Assembly: GCA_012837885.1 (NCBI GenBank)
Contig: DUQI01000070.1
Span: 1-55,641, forward strand
Direction of reading: 5' to 3'
Length of the DNA stretch: 55,641 bases
DNA from: Fastidiosipila sp.
GTDB lineage: Bacteria > Bacillota > Clostridia > Saccharofermentanales > DTU023
The first letter of the stretch is position 1. Every line of letters begins with the position of its first letter. Below, piece after piece: positions 7,119 to 55,641 of the stretch. The position numbers were made by a program, and so were the translations under genes. The notes below the pieces were generated by a model. It saw nothing but the letters and a program-made list of their open reading frames with translations. It had not been told where the DNA came from and did no database searches.

Positions 7119-8426
7119 ATGAAAAAATTTCGAGTGGTTCACTACATTAACCAGTTCTTCGCTCAGATCGGCGGAGAAGATATGGCTCACGTCCCCCCGG
7201 AGAAACGTGAAGGCGTCGTAGGCCCCGGTATAGCGATCCAGGCCGCACTCGGTGACGAGGCGGAAATCGTCGCAACCGTTATCTGCGGCGACAGCTACTT
7301 CGGCGAGAACATGGGTAAAGCGGAAGCGGAAGTACTTGAACTGATCAAATCGGAAAACCCCGACATCTTTATCGCTGGTCCGGCATTCAACGCCGGTCGT
7401 TACGGCGTCGCCGCCGGCACGATTACCTCAGCGGTGAAGCGTGAGCTCGGCATCCCGGCCGTGACCGGCATGTATGTCGAGAATCCGGGCGCCGAGATGT
7501 ACAAGGATGATGTCTACATCATCTCGACCACCAACTCGGCCGCAGGCGTTCGCGCCGCAGCTCCGTTGATGGCGAAACTTGCGCTGAAACTCGCGAAAGA
7601 CGAACCGATCGGTGCTTCGAAAGAGGAAGGCTATCTGCCGAACAACGTCAGAAAGAACTTCTTCGAAGAGAAGAGAGGCAGTGCGCGCGCCGTCGAGATG
7701 CTCGAGGCGAAGCTTGCCGGTAAACCGTACACGACCGAATATCCGATGCCGGACTTCGACCGTGTCGAACCGAACCCGCCGGTCGCCGATCTGTCTCAGA
7801 TCACGATCGCGCTCGTGACGTCCGGTGGTATTGTCCCGAAGGGCAACCCGGATCATATCGAGAGTTCGTCCGCGTCCAAGTTCGGTGAATACAGCCTCGA
7901 CGGCTTCGACGATCTTACGGCGGAGACGCACGAGACGGCGCACGGCGGCTATGACCCTGTCTATGCCAATGCCGACGCTGACCGCGTGCTGCCGGTCGAT
8001 GTGCTGCGTGAGTACGAAAAAGCCGGAAAGATTGGAAAGTTACATGACAAGTTCTACACCACCGTAGGTAACGGTACCGCCGTTGCCTCCGCCAAGGGCT
8101 TCGCTGAGGAAATCGCCAAGAGACTGCTCGCAGAGAAAGTCGGCGCGGTTATCCTCACCTCGACCTGAGGGACGTGTACGCGTTGCGGTGCAACGATGGT
8201 GAAAGAAATTGAAAGAGCCGGAATCCCGGTCGTGCATATGTGTACGGTCACCCCGATCTCAATGACGGTCGGTGCCAACCGTATTGTCCCGACAGTGGCG
8301 ATCCCGCACCCCCTCGGCAATCCCAATCTCCCGAATGACGAAGAAAAAGCCCTGCGTCGACGCCTGGTCGACAAGGCTCTGAAGGCGCTTCAGACGAAGG
8401 TCGACGATCAGACGATCTTTGAATAG
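7119..8426 (+). CDS. grdB: Glycine reductase complex component B gamma subunit GrdB, selenoprotein (in-frame UGA at 8166-8168)
   Basis: ORF track stops at 8168, but the same frame continues as ...VILTST-U-GTCTRCGATMVKEIERAGIPVVH... to TAG at 8424-8426; matches the GrdB Sec motif. Confidence 0.95.
8181..8195 (+). promoter_or_regulatory. bSECIS-like hairpin of grdB
   Basis: CGTTGC-GGT-GCAACG perfect 6-bp stem with GGU loop, starting 12 nt after the UGA. Confidence 0.75.
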
Positions 8427-9067: not shown

Positions 9068-9120
9068 AACTTAGCAAATAACACCCCGCATGGGTGATGA
9101 ATATTACAGGAGTAGAACAA

Positions 9121-10665
9121 ATGAAAAGTGTAGTCAAAGGTACCAGCTATGTGCTTGTCCACGCGCCCGATATGCTGCTGAGAAACGGCACGACGCAAAC
9201 GACGGAGCGCATCGTCAATCCCGACTCGGATTATCTGAAAAAACTGCCGGAGCATATCCGGTCTTACGACGATGCCCTGTCCTATCTGCCGAATCAGGCG
9301 TATATCGGTAATTTGGATCCGGTCGCTCTGAGAGAGCATGAGCAGCCCTGGTTCGACAAGAAGTATGACAAGGCCGATCGTTTCGGCAGCTTTGGCGAGA
9401 TCATGCCGCAGGAAGAGTTCTACTTCATGATCCAGGCAGCCGACGAATTCGAACTGGTGCGTCTGGAAAAAGGATTTGTCGAAGAGTACAAAGAGAAGTT
9501 CTTTGCAAACCCGGTGTTGACCGACCTGATCAAGGATCGGATTCATGACGGAATCGAAAAAGAAGCGCTGGAAAAGCTACTTGAAGATGATGCTGAAGGT
9601 CTTTACATCGGTGACCGTCTCGTCGGTGCCGTGAAGAAAGCGCACGACGTGGACGTGGCACTGACCTCGCACGTCCTGCTTGAAAACCTGGCGTCCAAAG
9701 CCTCGAATATTCTCTCGCTCCTCCATCTGATCAAGTCGGCCGGACTCGATCCGGACGAAGTCGACTATGTGATCGACTGTTCGGAAGAGGCGTGCGGCGA
9801 CATGAACCAGAGAGGCGGCGGTAACTTCGCCAAAGCGGCGGCGGAACTGGCCGGCTTTACGAATGCCACGGGCAGTGACACGAGAGGCTTCTGTGCCGCA
9901 CCGGTGCACGCGATCTCGATCGCGGCGTCGCTCGTCGCAGCCGGCGCGTATAAAAACGTCATCGTCGCAGCAGGCGGCTCGACCGCGAAACTCGGCATGA
10001 ACGGCAAGGATCATGTGAAAAAAGATATGCCGGTCGTCGAAGACGTGATGGGCGGCTTCGCCGTCTGGATCGGTGCAGACGACGGCAAGAACCCGTATAT
10101 CGATCTGGAGCATCTCGGACGTCATACGGTCGGCACGGGCAGCTCGCCGCAGGCCGTTATCACGTCGCTCGTTTCGGATCCGCTCGAGCGGGCCGGTCTG
10201 AAGATCACCGATATCGATATCTATTCGCCTGAAATGCAAAACCCCGACTGTACGAAACCGGCCGGCGCCGGCGACGTCCCGGTATCGAACCTGAAGATGA
10301 TCGCCGCTCTGGCCGTCAAACAGGGCGATCTGGAACGCGCAGGCATCAATGAATTCGTCGAAAATCGCGGCGTTCCGGGATTTGCCCCGACGCAGGGACA
10401 TATTCCGTCCGGTATCCCGATGATCGGACACAGCCGACAGGCGCTTTTGGACGGTGACGTCAAACGCGTCATGATCGTCGGCAAGGGAAGCTTGTTCCTC
10501 GGTCGTCTGACGAACTTGTTTGACGGTGTGTCGTTCATGCTCCTGCCGAACGAAGGCATTGAGGAGAAGAGCGCCGTATCGGGCGACGAACTGAGAAAGA
10601 TTGTGGCCGAATCCCTGAGAGGTTTCGCCCAGTCTCTGTTAAGTGAGGAAGAAGATGAGCAATAA
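9121..10665 (+). CDS. grdC: Glycine reductase complex component C beta subunit GrdC
   Basis: KSVVKGTSYVLVHAPDMLLRNGTTQTTERIVNP; FabH-like Cys region; start chosen at ATG 9121 after caggag RBS rather than 9094. Confidence 0.93.
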   Translation: MKSVVKGTSYVLVHAPDMLLRNGTTQTTERIVNPDSDYLKKLPEHIRSYDDALSYLPNQAYIGNLDPVALREHEQPWFDKKYDKADRFGSFGEIMPQEEFYFMIQAADEFELVRLEKGFVEEYKEKFFANPVLTDLIKDRIHDGIEKEALEKLLEDDAEGLYIGDRLVGAVKKAHDVDVALTSHVLLENLASKASNILSLLHLIKSAGLDPDEVDYVIDCSEEACGDMNQRGGGNFAKAAAELAGFTNATGSDTRGFCAAPVHAISIAASLVAAGAYKNVIVAAGGSTAKLGMNGKDHVKKDMPVVEDVMGGFAVWIGADDGKNPYIDLEHLGRHTVGTGSSPQAVITSLVSDPLERAGLKITDIDIYSPEMQNPDCTKPAGAGDVPVSNLKMIAALAVKQGDLERAGINEFVENRGVPGFAPTQGHIPSGIPMIGHSRQALLDGDVKRVMIVGKGSLFLGRLTNLFDGVSFMLLPNEGIEEKSAVSGDELRKIVAESLRGFAQSLLSEEEDEQ

Positions 10666-11809
10666 GGACATCAAGGTTTCAATCGCCAGGTTGTTCGAAG
10701 AGATGGCGACCGGCCTTGAGACCGGATCATTTGGTAGAAAACCGAAGATTATCGTGACCGGGCACGGCTCGGAGCACGGCGAAGACAACGTCCTCGCCGG
10801 TTGCCGTCAGGCGGCCGCCAAGGGCATCGACGTCATCTATCTCGGCACCAAGTCGATCGAAGGTGTTGAGACAGTGGAAGTCGCGACGGATGACGAGCAA
10901 CTGGCCAAGATGGAAGAGTTGCTCGACGCCGGCGAAGCCGATGCGGCGGTAGCCATGCACTATCCGTTCCCGATCGGTGTTTCAACGGTCGGCCGCGTGA
11001 TCGCGCCGTCGACCGGAAAGAAACTGTATCTGGCGACGACGACCGGCACATCGGCCACCGACCGCATCGAGGCGATGGTCAAAAATGCCGTAGCCGGCAT
11101 CATCACGGCCAAGGCAAGCGGTATCGAACAGCCGACGGTCGGTATTTTGAACGTCGACGGTGCGAGACAGACGGAGATCGTGCTCAATCAGCTGAAAGAA
11201 AACGGTTATGATATCCATTTCGCAACGTCCGGCCGTGCCGACGGCGGCGCCGTGATGCGCGGCAACGACGTCTTGAGAGGTACGCCGGATATCATGGTCA
11301 CCGACTCTCTGACCGGCAACGTGCTGACCAAGATGATGTCGGCACAGGCATCGGGCGGCAGTATCGAGACGGCGGGAGACGGCTACGGTCCAGGTATCGG
11401 TCAGGGCCATAAGCGCCTCGTCATGATCATCTCGCGTGCCTCCGGTACACCGGTTATCGAAGGTGCAATCACCTTCGCAGCCGAACTCGTCAAAGGCGGG
11501 GTATTCCAGATCGCTGAAGCGGAGTACAAGGCGGCGGAAGCAGCCGGCCTGAAAAAGATTCTCGAGGCGAGAAAGAAACAAGCCGCGCCGGCGGCCGAGG
11601 CTGAGGAAGTCAAGGCACCGCCGAAAGAGGTCGTCACGTACGAACTCGCCGGCATCGAGGTCATGGACCTTGAAGATGCCGTGTCGAAGCTTTGGAGCAA
11701 GGGCATCTATGCCGAGTCCGGCATGGGATGCACCGGCCCGATTATCCGGGTCAACGAAGCGAAGACGGACGACGCGGAAGCCGTGTTGAAAGAAGCCGGA
11801 TTCCGTTAA
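10655..11809 (+). CDS. grdD: Glycine reductase complex component C alpha subunit GrdD
   Basis: MSNKDIKVSIARLFEEMATGLE..., PlsX-like fold; overlaps the grdC stop; MGCTGPIIRVNE C-terminus. Confidence 0.93.
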   Translation: MSNKDIKVSIARLFEEMATGLETGSFGRKPKIIVTGHGSEHGEDNVLAGCRQAAAKGIDVIYLGTKSIEGVETVEVATDDEQLAKMEELLDAGEADAAVAMHYPFPIGVSTVGRVIAPSTGKKLYLATTTGTSATDRIEAMVKNAVAGIITAKASGIEQPTVGILNVDGARQTEIVLNQLKENGYDIHFATSGRADGGAVMRGNDVLRGTPDIMVTDSLTGNVLTKMMSAQASGGSIETAGDGYGPGIGQGHKRLVMIISRASGTPVIEGAITFAAELVKGGVFQIAEAEYKAAEAAGLKKILEARKKQAAPAAEAEEVKAPPKEVVTYELAGIEVMDLEDAVSKLWSKGIYAESGMGCTGPIIRVNEAKTDDAEAVLKEAGFR

Positions 11810-39275: not shown

Positions 39276-39353
39276 CATGCCGTCGGACTTGCGGCCTGTG
39301 CTAAGATAATGGTCACGCCTAGTGCGAAGAATCTGCCGGAGGGCCGGAATAAG

Positions 39354-40157
39354 TTGAACGATAAGTTAACGCTGTATGGCTTCAACAATCTGACAAAAAC
39401 GTTGAGTTTCAACATCTACGACGTGTGCTACGCCAAGACGAGTCGTGAACAGCGCGATTACCTCGCGTATATCGACGAACAGTACAATTCGGAGCGGCTG
39501 ACAGCCATCTTGCTGCATGTCACGAAGATGATCGGCGCGCATGTATTGAATATCTCGAAACAGGACTATGAGCCTCAGGGAGCCTCCGTCAACATTCTGA
39601 TCGCAGAACAGCCGGTACCTGAAGCAGACGTCGATCCGTCGAATAACAAGGGTGTTTTGCCGACGAACGGCGAGACGATTCATGCCCATTTGGACAAGAG
39701 CCATGTGACGGTGCATACGTTCCCTGAATCGCATCCGAACAAGGCGATCTCGACGTTTCGGGTCGATATCGACGTCGCCACCTGCGGTACGGTGTCCCCG
39801 TTGCAGGCGTTAAACTATCTGATCTCGAGTTTTGATTCCGACATCATCACGATCGATTACCGGGTGCGCGGTTTTACACGTGACACGGAAGGTCGTAAAC
39901 ACTTTCTCGATCATCCGATTACCTCGATCCAGAATTTTATCGACAATGAGACGTTGGCCCGCTACGATGCGACCGATGTCAACGTCTACCAGTCGAATCT
40001 TTTCCATACGAAGCTGATGATCAGCGAGATCAATCTGCAAAACTATCTGTTTAATACGGATGCCTACGAACTGCCGCCGAAGCGACGCCTGCAGATTACG
40101 GAAGCGTTGCAGCGCGAAATGATCGAAATTTACAGCGGCATGAACATCTATGACTGA
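39354..40157 (+). CDS. speD: S-adenosylmethionine decarboxylase proenzyme, SpeD class 1
   Basis: LTLYGFNNLTKTLSFNIYDVCYAKT; HLDKSHVTVHTFPESHP cleavage region; likely TTG start after GGAGGG (ORF extends to ATG 39309). Confidence 0.92.
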   Translation: MNDKLTLYGFNNLTKTLSFNIYDVCYAKTSREQRDYLAYIDEQYNSERLTAILLHVTKMIGAHVLNISKQDYEPQGASVNILIAEQPVPEADVDPSNNKGVLPTNGETIHAHLDKSHVTVHTFPESHPNKAISTFRVDIDVATCGTVSPLQALNYLISSFDSDIITIDYRVRGFTRDTEGRKHFLDHPITSIQNFIDNETLARYDATDVNVYQSNLFHTKLMISEINLQNYLFNTDAYELPPKRRLQITEALQREMIEIYSGMNIYD

Positions 40158-40159
40158 CG

Positions 40160-41626
40160 ATGAGCACGCGCACGTTCCAACTCGATCAGGATCAGGCGCC
40201 GCTCCATCGGGCGCTTCTGCGCTATCGCAAACGGCGTATCGTCTCGTTTGATGTCCCGGGGCATAAGCAGGGCAGAGCGACACCTGAATTAACCGAGTTT
40301 TTAGGGGCGAACTGCCTGTCCGTAGACGTCAATTCGATGGCGATGCTCGATAATCTGATCCATCCGATCAGCGTGATTAAGGAAGCGGAAGTGCTGGCTG
40401 CCGACGCCTTCGGCGCCGCAGCCGCCTATTTTATCGTGAACGGTACCTCGGCTGCCGTGCAGGCGATGATCCTCGCGTCCTTGAATCCCGGCGACAAGAT
40501 CATCATGCCGCGAAATGTCCACCGCTCCGCGATCAACGCCTTGATCCTGGCGCGTGCCGTGCCTGTCTACGTCAATCCCGGTCTCGATATCGAGCTCGGG
40601 ATTCCGCTCGGTATGGCTTTCAAGGATGTCAAGGCGGCGATCGAAAAGCATCCGGACGCCAAAGCCGTCTTGATCAACAATCCGACCTACTACGGGGTCT
40701 GTCCCGACGTCAAACGCTTGGCGGATCTGGCACATGAAAACGATATGCGTCTGCTGGTCGACGAAGCGCACGGTACACACTTTTATTTCAGTGACGATCT
40801 GCCTTTGGCCGGCATGGACGGCGGTGCCGACTTCAGTGCCATCTCGCTTCATAAGACCGGCGGATCGTTGACCCAGAGCTCGATGCTTCTGGTCGGTAAA
40901 CGGGTGATGGAAGACGCCGGCTACGTCAGACAGATTATCAATCTGACGCAGACGACGAGTGCTTCCTATCTCCTAATGTCCTCCCTTGATCTGGCGAGAA
41001 AAAATCTGGCGTTAAACGGCGCTGCCATCTTTTCGCGTGTCATCCAGCAGGCGGATTACGCGAGGGAAGAGATCAATCAGATCGGCGGCTATTACGCGTT
41101 TTCCAAGGAGCGCTGTGACGGCGACGCGTTCTTTTCGTTCGATGAGACGAAGCTCTCCGTGCACACCAGAAGCATGGGACTGTCCGGTATGGAAGTCTAT
41201 GAGCGCTTGCGCGACGAGTACGACATCCAAGTCGAGTTCGGCGATCTCGGTAATTTCCTCGCGATCGTCTCAATCGGGGATCGCCCGGTGGCGATCGAAC
41301 GCCTGATCGCAGCTTTGTCCGAAATCTATCGGCTTGAACGACGTGATCCGAGAGGCCTGATGGCCAACGAATATATTGAACCGCATGTGGCGATGACGCC
41401 GGCTGAGGCCTTCTACGCAAAGGCCGAGCAGTTACCGTTGAAAGACTGCATCGATCGTGTATGTGCCGAGTTCGTCATGTGCTATCCGCCCGGTATCCCG
41501 ATTCTGGCGCCAGGTGAATTAGTCACGAAGGAAGCGCTCGATTACATCAGTTATGCAAAATCGATCGGCAGCAACATGACGGGTACCGAAGACTTGGCTG
41601 TCGAGAAGTTATACGTGGTGATATGA
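40160..41626 (+). CDS. speA: Orn/Lys/Arg decarboxylase family, probable arginine decarboxylase
   Basis: FDVPGHKQGR, FIVNGTSAAVQAMI, DEAHGTHFYF, SLHKTGGSLTQSS PLP-Lys; located with agmatinase, which suggests arginine as substrate. Confidence 0.82.
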   Translation: MSTRTFQLDQDQAPLHRALLRYRKRRIVSFDVPGHKQGRATPELTEFLGANCLSVDVNSMAMLDNLIHPISVIKEAEVLAADAFGAAAAYFIVNGTSAAVQAMILASLNPGDKIIMPRNVHRSAINALILARAVPVYVNPGLDIELGIPLGMAFKDVKAAIEKHPDAKAVLINNPTYYGVCPDVKRLADLAHENDMRLLVDEAHGTHFYFSDDLPLAGMDGGADFSAISLHKTGGSLTQSSMLLVGKRVMEDAGYVRQIINLTQTTSASYLLMSSLDLARKNLALNGAAIFSRVIQQADYAREEINQIGGYYAFSKERCDGDAFFSFDETKLSVHTRSMGLSGMEVYERLRDEYDIQVEFGDLGNFLAIVSIGDRPVAIERLIAALSEIYRLERRDPRGLMANEYIEPHVAMTPAEAFYAKAEQLPLKDCIDRVCAEFVMCYPPGIPILAPGELVTKEALDYISYAKSIGSNMTGTEDLAVEKLYVVI

Positions 41627-42483
41627 ACAGATACGAATTATGGTTTAACGAATTTCATACGGAGCATGTGACGTTCTCATTTCGCGTCGATCGTCAACTG
41701 CTTCAGAAGACGTCCGATTTTCAGCGCATCGAGATTCTCGAAACGCCGGAGTTCGGCCGCGTGTTGATCCTGGACGGCATCATCATGTGTACGGAGAAAG
41801 ATGAATTCATCTACCACGACATGATCGTCCATGTGCCGATGGCCGTGCACCCCGAGGTGAAGAAGGTGCTCCTGATCGGCGGCGGCGACGGTGGTGCACT
41901 GAGAGAACTCTGCCGCTACGAGACGATTGAATCGATCGAGATTGTCGAGATCGACCTCGACGTCGTCAATGCGGCGAAAGAGTTTTTGCCGACGATGGCG
42001 ACCTCCTATGACGATCCGCGCGTCAACCTGATTATCGCTGACGGCCTGCGCTACGTGCGACGAAAAGAAAACGTCTATGATCTGATCATCGTCGATTCGA
42101 CCGACCCGTTCGGTCCCGGCGAGAGCCTCTTTACGAAAGAGTTTTACGGCAACTGCTATAAATCGCTCAAAGACGACGGCATACTTGTCAATCAGCACGA
42201 AAGTCCGTTCTACGGGCAGGAGGCGAGAGAGGCGCGGCTGACCCACCGGCGGATGAAGTCGGTCTTCGATCTGAGCCGCGTCTACCAGGCCCATATACCG
42301 ACGTATCCGTCCGGTCACTGGCTGTTCGGCTTTTCCTCGAAAGGTCTCGACCCGATCAAAGACTTCGACGCCGACCGCTGGAATGCGCTCGGGCTTCGCA
42401 CCAAATACTACAATACGGATATCCATGTCGGCTCGTTCATGCTGCCGAACTACGTATTGGAACTGATCGGAGAATTATCGTGA
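41623..42483 (+). CDS. speE: Spermidine synthase
   Basis: YHDMIVHVPM, LLIGGGDGGALREL, DSTDPFGPGESLFTKEFY. Confidence 0.94.
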   Translation: MNRYELWFNEFHTEHVTFSFRVDRQLLQKTSDFQRIEILETPEFGRVLILDGIIMCTEKDEFIYHDMIVHVPMAVHPEVKKVLLIGGGDGGALRELCRYETIESIEIVEIDLDVVNAAKEFLPTMATSYDDPRVNLIIADGLRYVRRKENVYDLIIVDSTDPFGPGESLFTKEFYGNCYKSLKDDGILVNQHESPFYGQEAREARLTHRRMKSVFDLSRVYQAHIPTYPSGHWLFGFSSKGLDPIKDFDADRWNALGLRTKYYNTDIHVGSFMLPNYVLELIGELS

Positions 42484-43331
42484 GCGAACTTAAGCCTCGT
42501 ACCTTCTGCGGTATGGAGACGCCGCCGGAAGCGTCCGATATCGTGATCTACGGTGCACCGTTTGACGGGACGACGAGCTTTCGTCCCGGCACGCGTTATG
42601 CGCCGGAGCGGATGCGACTCGAATCGTGGGGGCTGGAGACGTACAGTCCGTATCAGGATCTCGATCTCGAGGACTTCTTAATCGGCGATGCCGGCGATCT
42701 CGATTTACCGATGGGTGATGTCGCCGCGGCGCTCGATCAGATAGAGACGTTTGCCGACTCGTTGTTTGCCAAGAAAAAACGCCCGGTCATGCTCGGCGGC
42801 GAGCACAGCCTGACACTCGGCCAGCTGAGAGCGGCGCTCACTTTTTATCCCGACCTGCATATCATCCAGTTCGATGCGCACACCGATTTGCGCCACGAAT
42901 ATTATGGTCAACCGTTGTCGCATGCGTCGGTGATGCGGCGTGTCGCCGATATCCTGCCGGAGGGACACATCCATCAATTTGGCATTCGCTCCGGTTTGAA
43001 AGAGGAGTTTCACTTCGCGAGGGAGCACCTGAACTTTCATCCGTTCACCCTCGACGATTTGGAAGCGACACTGTCCGAACTGTCCGATAAGCCGCTCTAT
43101 GTCACGATCGATCTCGATGTGCTCGATCCGTCAGTCTTTCCCGGAACCGGTACACCGGAACCGGGTGGCGTCTCCTATCTCGACTTGCAGAAGGCCGTGA
43201 TCGCTTTTAGAAACAGTCGGGTGATAGCGGCCGATATCATGGAATTGTCGCCGCCTCTCGATCAGAGCGGCGCGTCGACCGCGGTCGCCTGCAAGATTCT
43301 GCGCGAACTCGTCCTGGCGATCGCAAAATAG
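42480..43331 (+). CDS. speB: Agmatinase
   Basis: Ureohydrolase motifs GGEHSLTLGQ, IQFDAHTDLR, TIDLDVLDPSVFPGTGTPEPGG. Confidence 0.94.
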   Translation: MSELKPRTFCGMETPPEASDIVIYGAPFDGTTSFRPGTRYAPERMRLESWGLETYSPYQDLDLEDFLIGDAGDLDLPMGDVAAALDQIETFADSLFAKKKRPVMLGGEHSLTLGQLRAALTFYPDLHIIQFDAHTDLRHEYYGQPLSHASVMRRVADILPEGHIHQFGIRSGLKEEFHFAREHLNFHPFTLDDLEATLSELSDKPLYVTIDLDVLDPSVFPGTGTPEPGGVSYLDLQKAVIAFRNSRVIAADIMELSPPLDQSGASTAVACKILRELVLAIAK

Positions 43332-44019: not shown

Positions 44020-44205
44020 CGACACAAATGAATAGCACGTGTATCCGCCGCAAGGCCAGCCTAGATGGCTGAGGGAATCGGATGAAATTTCCGAACTATC
44101 CCAGTAACCGTGAAGCTGACGCGCGAGCAATGGCCACTGTATGTTTACGGGAAGGCGCTCGCAAGGATGAAGCAAAGTCGGGAAACCTGTTTACTGTTTG
44201 ACTCC
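44020..44205 (+). ncRNA. Cobalamin (AdoCbl) riboswitch
   Basis: GGGAATcGGaTGAAA...CCAGTAACCGTGAAGC...GCCACTGTA...CGGGAAGG...GGATGAAGCaaAGTCGGGAAACCTG (B12 box); upstream of btuF-like gene. Confidence 0.9.
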
Positions 44206-44236
44206 TGGGGTTGGGAACGCTTTTACCTGTCTAAAT

Positions 44237-48290: not shown

Positions 48291-49231
48291 TGCTTTTATT
48301 GCTTACAGGCGGCGCAGCGAACGGCAAGAGCCGTTTCGCTGAGCGTCTGGCGGCCGCTTACGACGGTCCGCGGACGTATCTGGCGACGATGCGTCCGGAC
48401 GGTGAGGACGGTGTCGAGCGTGTGCGTCGACACCGCCGTCAGCGTGAAGGACTCGGTTTCGAAACGATCGAAAAAGAAGCCGGTTTGACGGAGGTCACGC
48501 TTCAAAAGCGGGGGCTCGTCCTGCTTGAATGCATTGCGACGCTCCTTGACAACGAATGGTTTCAGTTAAAGCGAACGAAAGAAGAAGCGATCGGGAAGGT
48601 TATGGACGCCGTAGGGCACCTGCTTCCTCAGGCTGACATGCTGGTCGTCGTCACCAACACGATATCGGCGGAAGGCAAAACGTATGACGAAGCGACCATG
48701 GCCTATATCGACGCGATCAGCGAGATCAATGGACGCCTGATCGAGATGGCCGACGCCGTGATCGAGATGCGGGTCGGTCGAGCGATTCTTTTAAAAGGAA
48801 AAAGTATACTCGACCGTGTTTTTCCGTCGGCCGTCATCGAAACGGCGACGATCGTCGACCCGGTCGAGGTGGTGGCGAAAGCCGACGGACCGGTGCTTGC
48901 CTTGGCCCCGGATGACGCCACACTGACCCGTCTCGCACGGGCGGCCGATTTTTCCGAAGACGATATTGCACACGGGGCACTGTTGGATCGGCCGGTGTTG
49001 AGCGGCCTCGATTCGCTTCTCATCGCGGAAGGTCATCAGGTGTTCGGCGCCGACTTCTCACGCTACCGCTTAATTCTGAGCCGCTTGTGGGGAGACGGCG
49101 TCATACCGGTCGAAGAAAAGGATCGCCGCCTGCGTGAGATGGCCGGCCGATTGACGATTCATATGGCTTTTGCCGTTTCTGTCGTTATGTATTATCACGA
49201 TAGTGTCTGGCTCTTGATTCACGCGTCCTGA
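48290..49231 (+). CDS. cobU: Adenosylcobinamide kinase/guanylyltransferase CobU-like with long C-terminal extension
   Basis: LLTGGAANGKSRFAE P-loop, YLATMRPDGEDGVERVRRHRRQR, ETIEKE, VLLECIATLLDNEW; GTG start overlapping cobT stop. Confidence 0.83.
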   Translation: MLLLLTGGAANGKSRFAERLAAAYDGPRTYLATMRPDGEDGVERVRRHRRQREGLGFETIEKEAGLTEVTLQKRGLVLLECIATLLDNEWFQLKRTKEEAIGKVMDAVGHLLPQADMLVVVTNTISAEGKTYDEATMAYIDAISEINGRLIEMADAVIEMRVGRAILLKGKSILDRVFPSAVIETATIVDPVEVVAKADGPVLALAPDDATLTRLARAADFSEDDIAHGALLDRPVLSGLDSLLIAEGHQVFGADFSRYRLILSRLWGDGVIPVEEKDRRLREMAGRLTIHMAFAVSVVMYYHDSVWLLIHAS

Positions 49232-49291
49232 AAACGTTTATAATAGTGTTGGCATGGCTCACCCCATGATTCCTAGGTGAGGACTTGAAAC

Positions 49292-50014
49292 ATGAAAACG
49301 ATCGAATACTTGTTTCCGGATGCCGGTTATCTGTACGGTGATGTCGGTCATCTGTTTTTGTTCGACCAGTTGTTTGAAACACATCGCGTCGTGCGCACAC
49401 CGCTATCCGCCACACCGCTTTTTGCCAAAGAAGATGTTGATTTTATCTACCTCGGTGCGATGACCGAGCGCTATCAGCGAGACGTGATTACAAAGCTGAT
49501 GCCCCATAGAGAGAGACTTTGGGAGTTGATCGAAGGCGGCGTGCATCTTCTTTTAACCCACAACGCCATGGACAACGTCGGTCAGACGATCAATTATCGC
49601 GGCGAACCGTATGAAGCACTCGGGCTTTTCGATTTCACGGTCGACGTTCAGCGCTGGCCACGGATCAATCAGTTTATCCTCGGCGACTTTGACGGTCTCG
49701 GCGTGACGGCGCACAAGTCACAGTTTACGACCACCGTCTTCGGTCCGGAGATGGAGGGCAAACACTTTTTCACGACGCTCAAGGGAATGGGAGCCAATCC
49801 TAAGGATAAGCGGGAAGGCATCCACTATAAAAACGTCTATGCGACCCAGTGTATGGGACCTTTCTTTGTGATTAATCCGCCTGTGATGAAATTGATCCTC
49901 AGGGAAATGGGGCTGCCTGAAGATCTGCCGGCAGAGGCATCGGGGACGGCCGCCTATGAGACGCGCCTCGCTGAGTTCGGTAGGCCGCGTTGCCGACAGT
50001 TGATGGAAGTATGA
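49292..50014 (+). CDS. GatD-like class I glutamine amidotransferase family protein (copy 1; nucleophile Cys position is His)
   Basis: GVHLLLTHNAMDNVGQ, EGIHYKNVYATQCMGPFFVINP; adjacent MurT-like gene. Confidence 0.78.
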   Translation: MKTIEYLFPDAGYLYGDVGHLFLFDQLFETHRVVRTPLSATPLFAKEDVDFIYLGAMTERYQRDVITKLMPHRERLWELIEGGVHLLLTHNAMDNVGQTINYRGEPYEALGLFDFTVDVQRWPRINQFILGDFDGLGVTAHKSQFTTTVFGPEMEGKHFFTTLKGMGANPKDKREGIHYKNVYATQCMGPFFVINPPVMKLILREMGLPEDLPAEASGTAAYETRLAEFGRPRCRQLMEV

Positions 50015-51393
50015 TGAAAAAGGGACTTCGTTTTATTGTCGCGCTGTTCGCGGCGAAATGGTTTGCCAGAACCGTCAGGCTCTTCGGCCACGGCGGTTCG
50101 CATACGCCGGCGCGGATCGCCAAAAGAATCGATCCGGCCTTTTTCGAGAAAATCGAGCGACCGGCGAAAGTCGTCTGCATAACCGGCACCAACGGCAAGA
50201 CGACCGTGAACAATATCGTGTCGCAGGTTCTAACGAAGCTCGGCATCGGTCATGCGCGCAATCTGTTCGGCAGTAACCTCCATGCCGGAGCCGTCTCGAC
50301 CTTGATCGAGATGCTCGACTGGCGGGGACGTATGACGGTCGATCTGGCTGTGCTCGAAGTCGATGAAATCTCGACGAAGACCGTGTTCCCCTATCTGAAA
50401 CCGGATATCGTCGCAGTCACGGTCCTTTTCCGCGACAGTTATGCGAGAAACGCGCACACCGATTTTATCTCTGAGTTATTGAATGATGCGATTCCTGAAG
50501 AATCGCTCCTGATCTTAAACAGCGACGATCTGATTTCATCGTCGCTCGCTCCCGACAATCAGCGGTGCTTCTTTTCAGTCGATCGTCTGCCCGGAGAAGA
50601 ACCGGAGACGACCGCCCTGATCAACGATCTGTCGCTTTGTCCTACCTGCCGTGTGCCGATCGACTATACTTTCCAGCGTTACCACCACATCGGCCGTGCG
50701 ACCTGCCCGTCCTGCGGTATGACAAATGCCGGCGCCGACTACGTGACGACAAAACTCGAGAACGAGCATCTGATCGAAATCCAAGAAGTGTCCACTGCCT
50801 CGGTACATGGCTATAAGCAGATCGGTGCCAATATCACTGATATCTACAACGAGACACTCGCGATCGTCCTGTTGCGTGAGATGGGCTTTCAGCCCGAGAC
50901 GATTGCTGACGCGATCACCGATGTCAAGGTGAAATCGAGCCGCTTTGACGAGGAGACGTTTGGCGACAAACGCATGATCTCGATCATGGGCAAGGATCAA
51001 AACCCGGTCGCGACGACGCGCGCTTTCGCCGTGATCGGCGGCCTGAAGGATGCCGGACGTGTCTGCGTCCTGATCGTCAATGAATCGATCGACCTACCCT
51101 TTTGTCCGGAAAACCTCGCCTACGTCTATGACGTCAATGTCGAGTATCTCGATCGGCCGTTTATCAAGACGATCGGGGTCGCCAGTCAACGCCGGCACGA
51201 CTACGTCCAACGTCTCTTGTTGGGACACATCGCACCGGAGAAGATCATCAGCGCGACGAGTGAAAAGGAACTTGCCAACATGATTAATGTCGACGACTAT
51301 GACACGATCGTCCTGGTCACCGGTACGTCGAATGCACCGGGCATCAAAGAAGCCCAAACCATACTGCGCACCCAGTTGGCTGCTTCCAGATAA
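50011..51393 (+). CDS. MurT-like Mur ligase family protein (copy 1)
   Basis: ITGTNGKTTVNNI P-loop; CPTC...CPSC zinc-ribbon insertion; ATGATG start overlapping gatD-like copy 1. Confidence 0.85.
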   Translation: MMKKGLRFIVALFAAKWFARTVRLFGHGGSHTPARIAKRIDPAFFEKIERPAKVVCITGTNGKTTVNNIVSQVLTKLGIGHARNLFGSNLHAGAVSTLIEMLDWRGRMTVDLAVLEVDEISTKTVFPYLKPDIVAVTVLFRDSYARNAHTDFISELLNDAIPEESLLILNSDDLISSSLAPDNQRCFFSVDRLPGEEPETTALINDLSLCPTCRVPIDYTFQRYHHIGRATCPSCGMTNAGADYVTTKLENEHLIEIQEVSTASVHGYKQIGANITDIYNETLAIVLLREMGFQPETIADAITDVKVKSSRFDEETFGDKRMISIMGKDQNPVATTRAFAVIGGLKDAGRVCVLIVNESIDLPFCPENLAYVYDVNVEYLDRPFIKTIGVASQRRHDYVQRLLLGHIAPEKIISATSEKELANMINVDDYDTIVLVTGTSNAPGIKEAQTILRTQLAASR

Positions 51394-51594
51394 ATCCGCC
51401 CTTTTCCGAAACCTGTTTTGCCATCCCAGCCGGACACGCGAGACGTGTCTCGGATTGCTATATGTTTGTCAGTTGGTGTTACCTACGTGACAGTTTTGCG
51501 ATTATCTTTTTGGCTTCCCTTTTAATCTTTGTTAATAATTATAGTATGGGTCGCGCAACGAGACGTTGTCGCGCGAAAAACATGGGAGTTGGCC

Positions 51595-52320
51595 ATGAAG
51601 ACGATTGAGTATTTATTTTATGATGCAGGGACGCTATTTGGTGATTACGGCCACTACTACTATTTTGATCAACTGTTCGCCTCGGAGCGGATTATCCGTA
51701 CCGGCCTGAACGATACGCCGGCTTTCATCAATGAACCGGTAGATCTCGTTTATCTCGGAGCGATGAATGAGCGCCACCAGATCATGGCGGCTGAGAGGCT
51801 TCTGCCTTTCCGTGATCGGCTTATCTCTTGTATTGAGAACGGCATGCATTTTCTTGCGACGTGCACGGCGATGGATATTCTCGGACAATCGATCGATTAC
51901 GAAGGTAAGACTCAGGCGATGCTCGGGCTTTTCGATTTTACGGTGAAGTTTCAACGCTGGCCGAGGATCAATCAGTTTGTCTACGGTGAATGGAACGGTA
52001 TCGAATTGACGGGACACAAGTCGCAGTTTACGAAAACGACCTTTGGTCCCGGTATGGACGATCGCTATTTCTTTAAGACGAAAAGAGGTATGGGTGCGAA
52101 TCCTACCGATACGAGGGAAGGCATTCACTACAAACACGTCTATGCGACGCAGTGCATGGGACCGTTCTTCGTGATAAATCCGGGCTTAATGAAACATATT
52201 TTACGTGAACTCGATCTGCCGGACGATCTGCCGGCCGAAGCAGCGGCGTTTGAAGCGCACGCGAACCGACTGGTCGAGTTTAAGCATCCGCGTGCCAGTC
52301 AGGCGATGGAGGTCTCATGA
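51595..52320 (+). CDS. GatD-like class I glutamine amidotransferase family protein (copy 2; Cys retained, His position altered)
   Basis: GMHFLATCTAMDILGQ, EGIHYKHVYATQCMGPFFVINP; start chosen at ATG 51595 (MKTIEYLFYDAG) matching copy 1. Confidence 0.78.
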   Translation: MKTIEYLFYDAGTLFGDYGHYYYFDQLFASERIIRTGLNDTPAFINEPVDLVYLGAMNERHQIMAAERLLPFRDRLISCIENGMHFLATCTAMDILGQSIDYEGKTQAMLGLFDFTVKFQRWPRINQFVYGEWNGIELTGHKSQFTKTTFGPGMDDRYFFKTKRGMGANPTDTREGIHYKHVYATQCMGPFFVINPGLMKHILRELDLPDDLPAEAAAFEAHANRLVEFKHPRASQAMEVS

Positions 52321-53705
52321 AGGGCATAAGATTTTATCTCGCTCTGTTCGCAGCGCGTCTCAGCCGAAGGCTGCTGCGCCTGATGGGACGTCAGGGAAGC
52401 CACACACCAGGTGATATCGCACGGCGGATCGATCGTGATTTTTTGAAAAAACTCGATAAGCCGCGCCATATCGTCTGTGTCACCGGCACGAACGGAAAGA
52501 CGACCGTCTCAAATATGATCTCCGACAGCCTGACCAAGATGGGCGTTTCGCATGCGAGAAACACGTACGGCAGTAATCTCGAGCAAGGCGTGATTGTCAG
52601 TCTTCTGGCAAGTGCCGACTGGCTCGGCAGAAGCAAGGTCGAGTACGGTCTGTTCGAGGTCGACGAGATCGCCTCGCGCACCATTTTTCCGGCGCTGTCA
52701 CCGCAGCTCATCGCGGTCACCAATCTGTATCGCGACAGCTATCGCAGAAATGCGCATACCGATTACATCGTCTCATTTCTCAACGAGGCGATTCCGGAAA
52801 GCGCACGCCTGATTTTGAATGCCGATGATTTGATCTCGGCGCAGGTCGCACCGAAAAACGAACGTCGCTATTTTTCGCTACCGCGCCTGCCGGATGAGCC
52901 AGAGGAAAAGTCGGCGATCATCAACGATCTTTCGCTCTGTCCCGTCTGTAGCGGGCCGCTCCAGTTTACGTTTCAGCGCTACCATCATCTCGGGCAGGCC
53001 GTTTGTGATGGCTGTGGTCTGACCAATCCTGAACCCGATTATGCGCTGACCGACGTCTCGGCCGATGGCGTGGCGATTCTCGAAAAGAAAGACGATCTGG
53101 CACACCGCTATCCGCGGATCGGAGCGCGTATTGTCGAGATGTATAACGAATTGACCGCGGTGACGATTTTGCGTGAGCTCGGCTTCAAGCCGGATGCGAT
53201 CGCCCGGTCTTTGGACGGTGTAAAAGTGACCGAGAGCCGCTACAAAGAGACGGTGATCGGTGAAAAGCGGATGCTTGTCATGCTCGGTAAAGACCAGAAC
53301 CCGATCGCGACGACGCGCGCGCTCGCCGATATCGGTCAGTTGAAAGACGCAAAAAGCGCCGCCGTCTTGTTGATCAATCAGGTCGTCGACAATGAGTTTT
53401 CGTCGGAGAATATCGCCTGGATATACGACGTCAACTTCGATTACCTGAATCAGCCGTTCATCAAGCGAATCGGCAACGGCAGTCCGCGCTATAAGGACTT
53501 CGAGCAGCGTATGCTCCTCGCCGGCATCCCGCCAGAGAAAATCGTCGGCGCCGTGGACGAAGAGACGCTGGCTAAGTCGATCGATATTTCCGATGTCGAT
53601 GTGATCGTCTTGATTACCGGCACGAAGAATAAACCGGGGGTAGCGAAAGCGGAAGCGGCGATGGTCGAAAGGCTAATAGCGCTCGCTGAACCGACGGCTG
53701 TTTAA
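52317..53705 (+). CDS. MurT-like Mur ligase family protein (copy 2)
   Basis: VTGTNGKTTVSNMI, CPVC...CDGC, ATGA overlap with gatD-like copy 2. Confidence 0.85.
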   Translation: MKGIRFYLALFAARLSRRLLRLMGRQGSHTPGDIARRIDRDFLKKLDKPRHIVCVTGTNGKTTVSNMISDSLTKMGVSHARNTYGSNLEQGVIVSLLASADWLGRSKVEYGLFEVDEIASRTIFPALSPQLIAVTNLYRDSYRRNAHTDYIVSFLNEAIPESARLILNADDLISAQVAPKNERRYFSLPRLPDEPEEKSAIINDLSLCPVCSGPLQFTFQRYHHLGQAVCDGCGLTNPEPDYALTDVSADGVAILEKKDDLAHRYPRIGARIVEMYNELTAVTILRELGFKPDAIARSLDGVKVTESRYKETVIGEKRMLVMLGKDQNPIATTRALADIGQLKDAKSAAVLLINQVVDNEFSSENIAWIYDVNFDYLNQPFIKRIGNGSPRYKDFEQRMLLAGIPPEKIVGAVDEETLAKSIDISDVDVIVLITGTKNKPGVAKAEAAMVERLIALAEPTAV

Positions 53706-53838: not shown

Positions 53839-55038
53839 ATGTCAAAAGCATTGATGATCGGCGCCGGCGGCGTAGCCACGGTGGCAGCCCACAAGTGTGT
53901 CGAAAATGATGAGGTATTCAGTGAGCTTTGCATCGCCAGCCGAACGCTCGAAAAAGCCGAAGCACTGCGCGACAAGGTAGCTGGCGGGAAGGTGAAAGTG
54001 ACAGCAGCCGAAGTCGATGCCGATGACGTCGATCAGCTCGTCGCCTTGATTGAAAAAGAAAAGCCGAAGATCGTCATACACCTCGCCTTGCCGTATCAGG
54101 ATCTGACGATCATGGAGGCCTGCCTGCGCACCAAGACCCATTATCTCGATACGGCCAATTACGAGCCGAAAGACGAGGCGAAATTCGAGTACAAATGGCA
54201 GTGGGATTACCGTGAGCGCTTCGAGGAAGCCGGCATCACGGCGATTTTAGGTTCTGGATTCGACCCTGGTGTGACCGGTGTATTTTCCGCTTACGCGTTG
54301 AAGCATGAATTCGACGAGATCAATGAACTCGATATCCTGGACTGTAACGGCGGCGATCACGGCTATCCGTTTGCGACGAACTTCAACCCGGAGATCAATA
54401 TCCGTGAAGTGACAGCCAACGGCCGCTATTTTGAAGACGGTCGCTTTGTCGAAACCGAACCGCTCGAAATTAAGCGTAGCTATAACTTCGAAGAGGTCGG
54501 CGAGCGCGACATGTATCTGCTCTATCACGAAGAGCTCGAGTCGCTCGCGAAAAACCTCCCCGGCATCCGTCGCATCCGTTTCTTCATGACGTTCGGTGAG
54601 AGCTATCTGAGGCACTTGGAGGTCTTGCAAAACGTCGGCATGACGTCGATTGAACCGATCGAGTTCGAAGGGCAACAGATCATCCCGCTGCAGTTTTTGA
54701 AGGCGGTATTGCCGGATCCCGCGTCGCTCGGTCCGCGAACGAAAGGGAAGACGAACATCGGCTGCATCTTCACCGGTGTGAAAGACGGCAAGAAGAAGCA
54801 CTATCGCCTGTACAACATCGCCGATCACGAGGCTGCATTTGCCGAGACAGGCGCACAGGCCGTGTCCTATACGACCGGTGTACCGGCGATGATCGGTGCC
54901 TCGCTCGTTTTAACCGGTGATTGGGAAAAACCCGGTGTCCATAACGTCGAGGAACTCGATCCCGACCGTTTCATGGATATGTTAAATAAATACGGTCTGC
55001 CTTGGATCGAAGACCGCGATCCCGTTCTGGTCCCGTGA
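53839..55038 (+). CDS. Saccharopine dehydrogenase family; probable carboxynorspermidine/carboxyspermidine dehydrogenase
   Basis: MSKALMIGAGGVATVAAHKC Rossmann motif; DTANYEPKDEAKFEYKWQWDYRERFEEAGI; start after AGGAGG; followed by decarboxylase. Confidence 0.87.
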   Translation: MSKALMIGAGGVATVAAHKCVENDEVFSELCIASRTLEKAEALRDKVAGGKVKVTAAEVDADDVDQLVALIEKEKPKIVIHLALPYQDLTIMEACLRTKTHYLDTANYEPKDEAKFEYKWQWDYRERFEEAGITAILGSGFDPGVTGVFSAYALKHEFDEINELDILDCNGGDHGYPFATNFNPEINIREVTANGRYFEDGRFVETEPLEIKRSYNFEEVGERDMYLLYHEELESLAKNLPGIRRIRFFMTFGESYLRHLEVLQNVGMTSIEPIEFEGQQIIPLQFLKAVLPDPASLGPRTKGKTNIGCIFTGVKDGKKKHYRLYNIADHEAAFAETGAQAVSYTTGVPAMIGASLVLTGDWEKPGVHNVEELDPDRFMDMLNKYGLPWIEDRDPVLVP

Positions 55039-55641
55039 TGGAAAATAGTCCGCTCGCACAGGTGCCGACGCCGTCGTATGTGATCGATCTTGAAAAGCTG
55101 AAGCAGAATCTTCAGACGCTTCGCTATGTAGCCGATCAGTCGGGATGCCGTATTTTACTCGCGCAAAAGGCGTTTTCCGCCTACGATACGTACGCCCTGA
55201 TCGGTGAGTATCTGGACGGCACGGCAGCCAGCGGCATCTACGAGGCGCGTCTCGGCGCCGAATACATGCCGCACGGTGAAGTGCATGTGTTTTCACCTGC
55301 TTACCGTGACGAGGAGTTTGTCGAGGTGTTGGGGCTCGCCAACACGATCGTCTTCAACTCCTTCTCCCAGTGGCTACGCTTCAAACCGCTGCTCGAGCAG
55401 CACATAGCCGATGAGCGTCCGCCCGTCAGTGTCGGTCTGCGCATCAATCCACTGTATTCGGAAGTCGAGGTCGACATCTATAATCCGGCTGCGCCGGGAT
55501 CGAGGCTCGGGGTGACGCTCGATGCCTTCAATCAGGGGATGCTGGCACACGGTCTCGAGGGGCTGGAGGGCATCCATTTTCATGCGCTCTGCGAAGATTC
55601 GGCCGAGACACTGGAGCGTACGCTCGAACATGTCTACCGGC
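55038..55641 (+). CDS. nspC: Carboxynorspermidine decarboxylase (partial, truncated by window end)
   Basis: TGATG overlap; MENSPLAQVPTPSYVIDLEKLKQNLQTL...LLAQKAFSAYDTYALIGEYLDGTAASGIYEARLGAEYMPHGEVHVFSPAYRD; absent from the ORF track because it runs off the end. Confidence 0.87.
   Translation, partial: MENSPLAQVPTPSYVIDLEKLKQNLQTLRYVADQSGCRILLAQKAFSAYDTYALIGEYLDGTAASGIYEARLGAEYMPHGEVHVFSPAYRDEEFVEVLGLANTIVFNSFSQWLRFKPLLEQHIADERPPVSVGLRINPLYSEVEVDIYNPAAPGSRLGVTLDAFNQGMLAHGLEGLEGIHFHALCEDSAETLERTLEHVYR

Follow-up and report, generated by a model that had tools for sequence, protein, structure and literature searches.

The window analyzed here, a 55,641-nucleotide stretch of Fastidiosipila sp. 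(GenBank assembly GCA_012837885.1, contig DUQI01000070.1), carries two tandem gene pairs related to those encoding the MurT/GatD isoglutaminyl synthase. We find that these pairs belong to a large, conserved and apparently undescribed subfamily, here called MurT*/GatD*, in which the catalytic triad of the glutaminase is lost and a new set of residues is conserved in its place, and in which the ATP site and the zinc ribbon of the ligase are retained. Alignment and published mutants indicate that GatD* is very probably glutaminase-dead, and MurT* probably remains an ATP-dependent ligase acting on a peptidoglycan precursor. Our preferred reading, to which we give a probability of about 50%, is that the amine used by MurT*/GatD* is larger than ammonia. 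Open PubMed Central (PMC) literature, for the most part titles and abstracts, yielded no description of the subfamily.

The two pairs comprise the following features, with residues numbered here and below as in the S. aureus proteins:

49214-49244, forward strand: candidate sigma-70 promoter (TTGATT-N19-TATAAT) for the first pair, read by eye, weak, and not among the reports of a consensus promoter scan
49292-50014, forward strand: gatD1*, GatD-like subunit with His at the Cys94 position (codon 49559-49561) and Met at the His189 position (49853-49855)
50011-51393, forward strand: murT1*, MurT-like ligase with GTNGKTT from 50185, a Cys4 zinc ribbon, Asn at the Asp349 position (51112-51114) and the loop RDSYARNAH (Ser135-equivalent codon 50437-50439)
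51595-52320, forward strand: gatD2*, GatD-like subunit with Cys at position 94 (51862-51864), Thr for Gly95 and Met for His189 (52156-52158)
52317-53705, forward strand: murT2*, MurT-like ligase with GTNGKTT from 52485, Cys4, Asn at the Asp349 position (53409-53411) and the loop RDSYRRNAH (Ser135-equivalent codon 52737-52739)

Within each pair the genes overlap by 4 nt (ATGA), and the pairs lie 201 nt apart; these coordinates bear out the arrangement given in the original prediction, two translationally overlapping gatD-murT-like pairs in direct tandem. As judged by alignment of GatD1 to S. aureus GatD (3e-10) and of MurT2 to S. aureus MurT (8e-44), homology is far beyond chance. In Pfam, both ligases match MurT_C and Mur_ligase_M, and GatD2 matches GATase_3. 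The AlphaFold2 model of GatD1 (predicted local distance difference test score, 94.5) is predicted to adopt the CobB/CobQ-type glutamine amidotransferase fold of GatD, its best Protein Data Bank match being S. aureus GatD (5n9m, template modeling score 0.82) and its top matches being GatD chains with scores of about 0.8. The two-subunit architecture, the P-loop, the Cys4 ribbon, the MurT_C domain, the GatD fold and the operonic coupling are shared with the enzymes of S. aureus and S. pneumoniae. Unlike those enzymes, the window proteins score far under the NCBIfam equivalog cut-offs (42-49 bits vs. 450 for GatD, 136-171 vs. 800 for MurT), and the gene order in the window genus is gatD-murT.

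The subfamily also departs from canonical MurT/GatD in the active site, where Cys94, His189 and Asp349 are replaced and the oxyanion hole and ammonia-channel loop are rewritten. Alignment to S. aureus GatD confirmed the predicted exchange of the nucleophile for His in GatD1 (motif LLLTHNAMDNVG) as well as the sequence ATQCMGP in both GatDs, which puts Met where the catalytic His189 is expected. Extended to MurT, the alignment shows that both copies have Asn in place of Asp349, which completes the triad in S. aureus. Both window MurTs contain the Mur ligase P-loop (GTNGKTT), Glu108, Asn267, the Cys4 (CxxC...CxxC) zinc ribbon and the MurT_C domain. The earlier description of the ligase half as intact thus holds for the ATP site and the zinc ribbon; it does not hold for Asp349 and the putative ammonia-channel loop, which changed along with the glutaminase triad.

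Scanning genome contigs with the non-canonical GatD alignment, with gene calls made mechanically throughout, gave 80 loci from Clostridia and Actinomycetota (the best 80 matches, a partly biased sample). None of 96 GatD* relatives keeps Cys94, and none keeps His189. They carry the motifs TGNAxExxG and TYLLGP, with Gly at position 94 in 85/96, Asn at position 95 and Glu or Asp at position 98 in all 96, Gln149 in 85/96, and mostly Leu, Ile or Val at position 189. Work on S. pneumoniae assigns the role of third triad residue to a GatD Asp instead; position 19, taken as its equivalent, is Asp or Glu in 96/96. Among 89 MurT* partners, Asn349 is found in 83, and the loop RDQxDR[YF]GE has become RDSxxRNAH (Ser135 in 89, Asn139 in 88, His141 in 87), with Asp or Glu at position 134 and Arg138 in every one. 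Arg128 of canonical MurT/GatD is not conserved in the subfamily, unlike the Arg at 129. The P-loop is kept, as is the zinc ribbon (87-88 of the 89); MurT_C is matched in 56 of 59 relatives, mostly once per genome, and MurT* is the sole MurT in 22 of 25 named carrier genomes. Cultured carriers include Coprococcus catus, Frisingicoccus caecimuris and Anaeromassilibacillus senegalensis. A Lachnospiraceae group (L099/L104/L107/L108) has the two subunits fused. Because the replacement motif is near-invariant in the relatives, the former active site looks reused rather than decayed: the active sites had been called "eroded," which is misleading. The window genus itself is an outlier within the subfamily, with His or Cys at 94 and Met at 189.

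These data bear on whether the window copies could be functionless, decaying duplicates. The loss of catalytic residues and the duplication would fit such a view, which is nonetheless nearly refuted, since the frames are open and overlapping, synonymous divergence (dS) is well above nonsynonymous divergence (dN), the syntenic pair recurs in a second species of the genus (the G001 orthologue) and the new motifs are strictly conserved in the 96 relatives. Both copies evolve under constraint (dN 0.33 and dS 2.2 between gatD1 and gatD2; dN 0.45 and dS 1.66 between murT1 and murT2), and chance or pseudogene status was rejected on conservation and dN/dS.

Two other arrangements of these genes were seen. 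Orphan MurTs with no adjacent gatD occur at L156, L162, L169, L172 and L174 and at L165 and L171 (family f1, genera g2 and g5), and Asp349 is kept in those checked. The genomes that hold canonical MurT-GatD fusions at L161 (8940-11405) and L168 (7868-10069), each beginning at most 6 nt downstream of a cobA/btuR-like gene, have an orphan MurT as well.

In two maximum-likelihood MurT trees built by a quick method, the non-canonical types group together, apart from canonical MurT (Shimodaira-Hasegawa-like approximate likelihood ratio test support of 97 with 82 rows and 94 with 93 rows, the latter including one added type). Inside the type-A branch, the window copies group in a clade with the G001 orthologue (support 100). 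Cys94 of GatD2 is therefore nested among Gly-bearing relatives, and a secondary origin accounts for it more readily than retention as a catalytic residue. Some glutaminase activity could in principle persist in the window copies by way of a re-arranged dyad, based for example on GatD2 Cys94, which the G001 orthologue shares, or on Cys188, which stands beside Met189 in both GatDs and might form a swapped pair with His94 in GatD1. We consider this very unlikely, given the lack of His189, the Asn at 349, the Ala and Thr at the oxyanion-hole positions of GatD2 and the nesting of the Cys94 bearers in an otherwise Gly clade.

The substitutions can be compared with those studied in the S. aureus enzyme, where C94G, C94S, C94A, H189A and D349N abolish or severely reduce glutamine-dependent or glutaminase activity (PMC3266927, PMC5871853, PMC6113224). 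The subfamily combines two of these inactivating changes, C94G and D349N, with replacement of His189, of the oxyanion hole and of the channel loop, and alignment and mutants together support the original prediction of a non-canonical subfamily with a glutaminase-dead GatD. In S. pneumoniae, MurT loop 135-143 faces GatD and is the proposed ammonia channel (PMC6085368). Loss of the glutaminase alone does not imply a larger amine, because the C94G variant of S. aureus MurT/GatD, supplied with NH3 at pH 8.5, can still amidate lipid II; MurT requires GatD even for this activity (PMC3266927), which would explain why GatD* is retained.

The main rival to our reading builds on this mutant: MurT*/GatD* would be an ammonia-dependent amidase that still makes D-isoglutamine, drawing on the free NH3/NH4+ that the gut or rumen supplies in abundance, and GatD* would be a pseudoenzyme with a structural role. 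Many carriers are indeed rumen or gut metagenome-assembled genomes, and most have no other MurT. However, the channel loop and oxyanion hole were not left alone, being replaced by new invariant residues; the S. aureus enzyme shows no use of NH3 at pH 7.5; the carriers include actinobacteria not obviously derived from the gut; and the gene neighborhoods described below, in which ectB, murE and ATP-grasp genes recur, would go unexplained. We regard this rival as less likely than our reading, but as the most serious of the alternatives. A precedent for a pseudo-glutaminase amidotransferase is the ammonia-dependent carbamoyl phosphate synthetase I, in which, as here, a glutaminase-fold partner is retained after loss of the nucleophile. 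Unlike that enzyme, MurT*/GatD* has a conserved replacement motif, and part of the family is linked to diaminobutyrate synthesis.

In our preferred reading, MurT* still binds ATP and, like MurT, would convert the alpha-carboxyl of D-Glu (residue 2 of the peptidoglycan stem) to an activated acyl phosphate. The attacking amine would not be released from glutamine in GatD*; an external amine, likeliest an amino acid or a diamine, would be used directly, placing a substituent other than NH2 on D-Glu. GatD* would be kept as a physically required, non-glutaminase partner, and the amine may sit in its reworked pocket. Where ectB is adjacent, the amine would likely be L-2,4-diaminobutyrate, a proposal that applies to those lineages and not to the window genome.

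The evidence for diaminobutyrate comes from gene neighborhoods. The gene ectB lies directly adjacent in 9 of the 80 murT*gatD* loci, in five lineages of two phyla and in both orientations (L043/L050, L047, the fused L099/L104/L107/L108, Propionibacteriaceae L110 and Coriobacteriales L111). Its product scores as diaminobutyrate--2-oxoglutarate transaminase (NCBIfam TIGR02407) above the cut-off in L107 and L047, and just below it in L110, L111 and L043. Among 388 genomes sampled independently from the window's class, only 8 carry ectB; three of these have a murE-ectB arrangement, two have ectB next to ATPgrasp_ST (PF14397), and five have a triad-lost GatD. A fourth murE-ectB case is found in G077, and ATPgrasp_ST flanks murT*gatD* in seven loci. 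These neighborhoods therefore tie diaminobutyrate to peptidoglycan precursors. The MurE beside ectB has an EDPG-, EDPS- or EDAR-type motif, not DNPR. In two genomes where ectB abuts murT*gatD* (G072 and G063), the only MurE found is of the diaminopimelate type (DNPR), which leaves MurT* as a candidate user of diaminobutyrate.

Amine-bearing groups on the D-Glu alpha-carboxyl, the carboxyl that MurT modifies, are found in group B (2-4 linked) peptidoglycan and in the polyamine-substituted peptidoglycan of Negativicutes (PMC10628300, PMC4156110), and one type-B wall example contains diaminobutyrate (PMC4156110). The open PMC literature searched named no enzyme for either the group B or the Negativicutes polyamine substitution. 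Negativicutes-style diamine peptidoglycan was rejected as a direct explanation, the relatives being Clostridia and Actinomycetota in a genome set that held no Negativicutes.

Microbacteriaceae are known for type-B walls, in which the bridge is attached to the D-Glu alpha-carboxyl. Of the 67 loci classified there, 49 lost Cys94 and the Asp349 region in a separate event (support 100), which we count in favor of a larger amine; about 13 others are canonical, and the remainder are of the other non-canonical types. At L150, L151 and L226-L278, Cys94 has given way to Gly, Ala, Ser, Asn or Thr, His189 is mostly kept, and MurT has GTPDP or DVRDP in place of DGRD. A third GatD motif type (GTSIxLF or IGGSG, with FTNxLGP) was seen at L219-L222 and L277, four of these five loci being in ectB-bearing genomes.

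Several of these observations weigh against a larger amine. GatD2 keeps a Cys at position 94 (LATCTAMDILG), and the C94G enzyme can still use ammonia. True ectB is present in 9 of the 25 named carriers; most carriers, including the window family, are without it, and the window genome has no true ectB, so that ectB as a universal partner was rejected. The canonical Microbacteriaceae loci make the correlation with type-B walls imperfect, and a simple one-to-one link with such walls was likewise rejected. Going further, we tentatively suggest, as something that may well prove wrong, that MurT*/GatD* is the missing ligase for the D-Glu alpha-carboxyl of the precursor, to which it would join an amino acid or a diamine, in ectB lineages diaminobutyrate. 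This would be the first step in forming a side chain or a 2-4 (group B-like) cross-bridge, with the ex-glutaminase pocket as the amine-binding site.

The window genome (1.93 Mb, 91.7% complete) was searched for a canonical murT-gatD pair or another MurT outside the two tandem pairs, and at this completeness none was found. A search of the same genome with PF14397 gave no match. Its only MurE-like match falls below the cut-off and is without DNPR, and the window-family MurE-like ligases at L294, L295 and L293 are likewise below the murE cut-off and without this motif, which suggests that the family has an unusual third stem residue or that a true MurE is missing.

Upstream in the window, the B12 salvage genes btuFCD-cobT-cobU end about 60 nt before gatD1, and a cobalamin riboswitch precedes them (44036-44208); cobU (313 aa) extends beyond its CobU domain (residues 4-166). 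Together with CobB/CobQ being the nearest outside kin of GatD, this setting might point to another acceptor, such as a teichoic-type polymer, a cofactor or a corrinoid, with GatD* as a regulatory or substrate-binding domain. We think this rather unlikely, because the B12 neighborhood is not conserved in other genera, where cell-wall genes are found among the neighbors, because the window pairs are the genome's only MurTs and because a possible promoter lies just ahead of gatD1. A B12 function deduced from cobT/cobU was rejected for the same lack of conservation.

Downstream of murT2* lie two polyamine genes:

53839-55038, forward strand: CANSDH, carboxynorspermidine synthase-like; the same neighbor occurs in the second species (L155)
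55038-55641, forward strand: nspC, carboxynorspermidine decarboxylase (CANSDC), first ~200 codons, the gene being cut by the contig end

A matching second part of nspC is present on another contig, and CANSDH/CANSDC also follow murT2* in G001. This association was given little weight, since nspC occurs in 17 of 22 family genomes, mostly at a distance from murT. A classical spermidine cluster is also present in the window (39309-43331: the S-adenosylmethionine decarboxylase gene speD, an Orn/Lys/Arg decarboxylase gene, the spermidine synthase gene speE and the agmatinase gene speB), and the polyamine link was set aside as weak. Elsewhere in the window, the gene for a GrdF/GrdB-type reductase selenoprotein (7119-8426) has an in-frame TGA for Sec350, after which Rfam gives a SECIS_4 match (8169-8206), and component C subunits downstream (9094-11809) make this a sarcosine/glycine reductase operon.

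In several pathogens MurT/GatD is essential and a drug target, and amidation of D-Glu shapes both peptidoglycan cross-linking and innate sensing. The existence of this widespread branch means that many gut commensals probably carry a wrong database annotation, "glutamine amidotransferase / lipid II isoglutaminyl synthase." MurT*/GatD* is also a candidate, amenable to testing, for the activity by which amino acids or diamines become attached to the alpha-carboxyl of D-Glu; if this assignment is true, the walls of gut Lachnospiraceae and Oscillospiraceae would have a chemistry not yet described.

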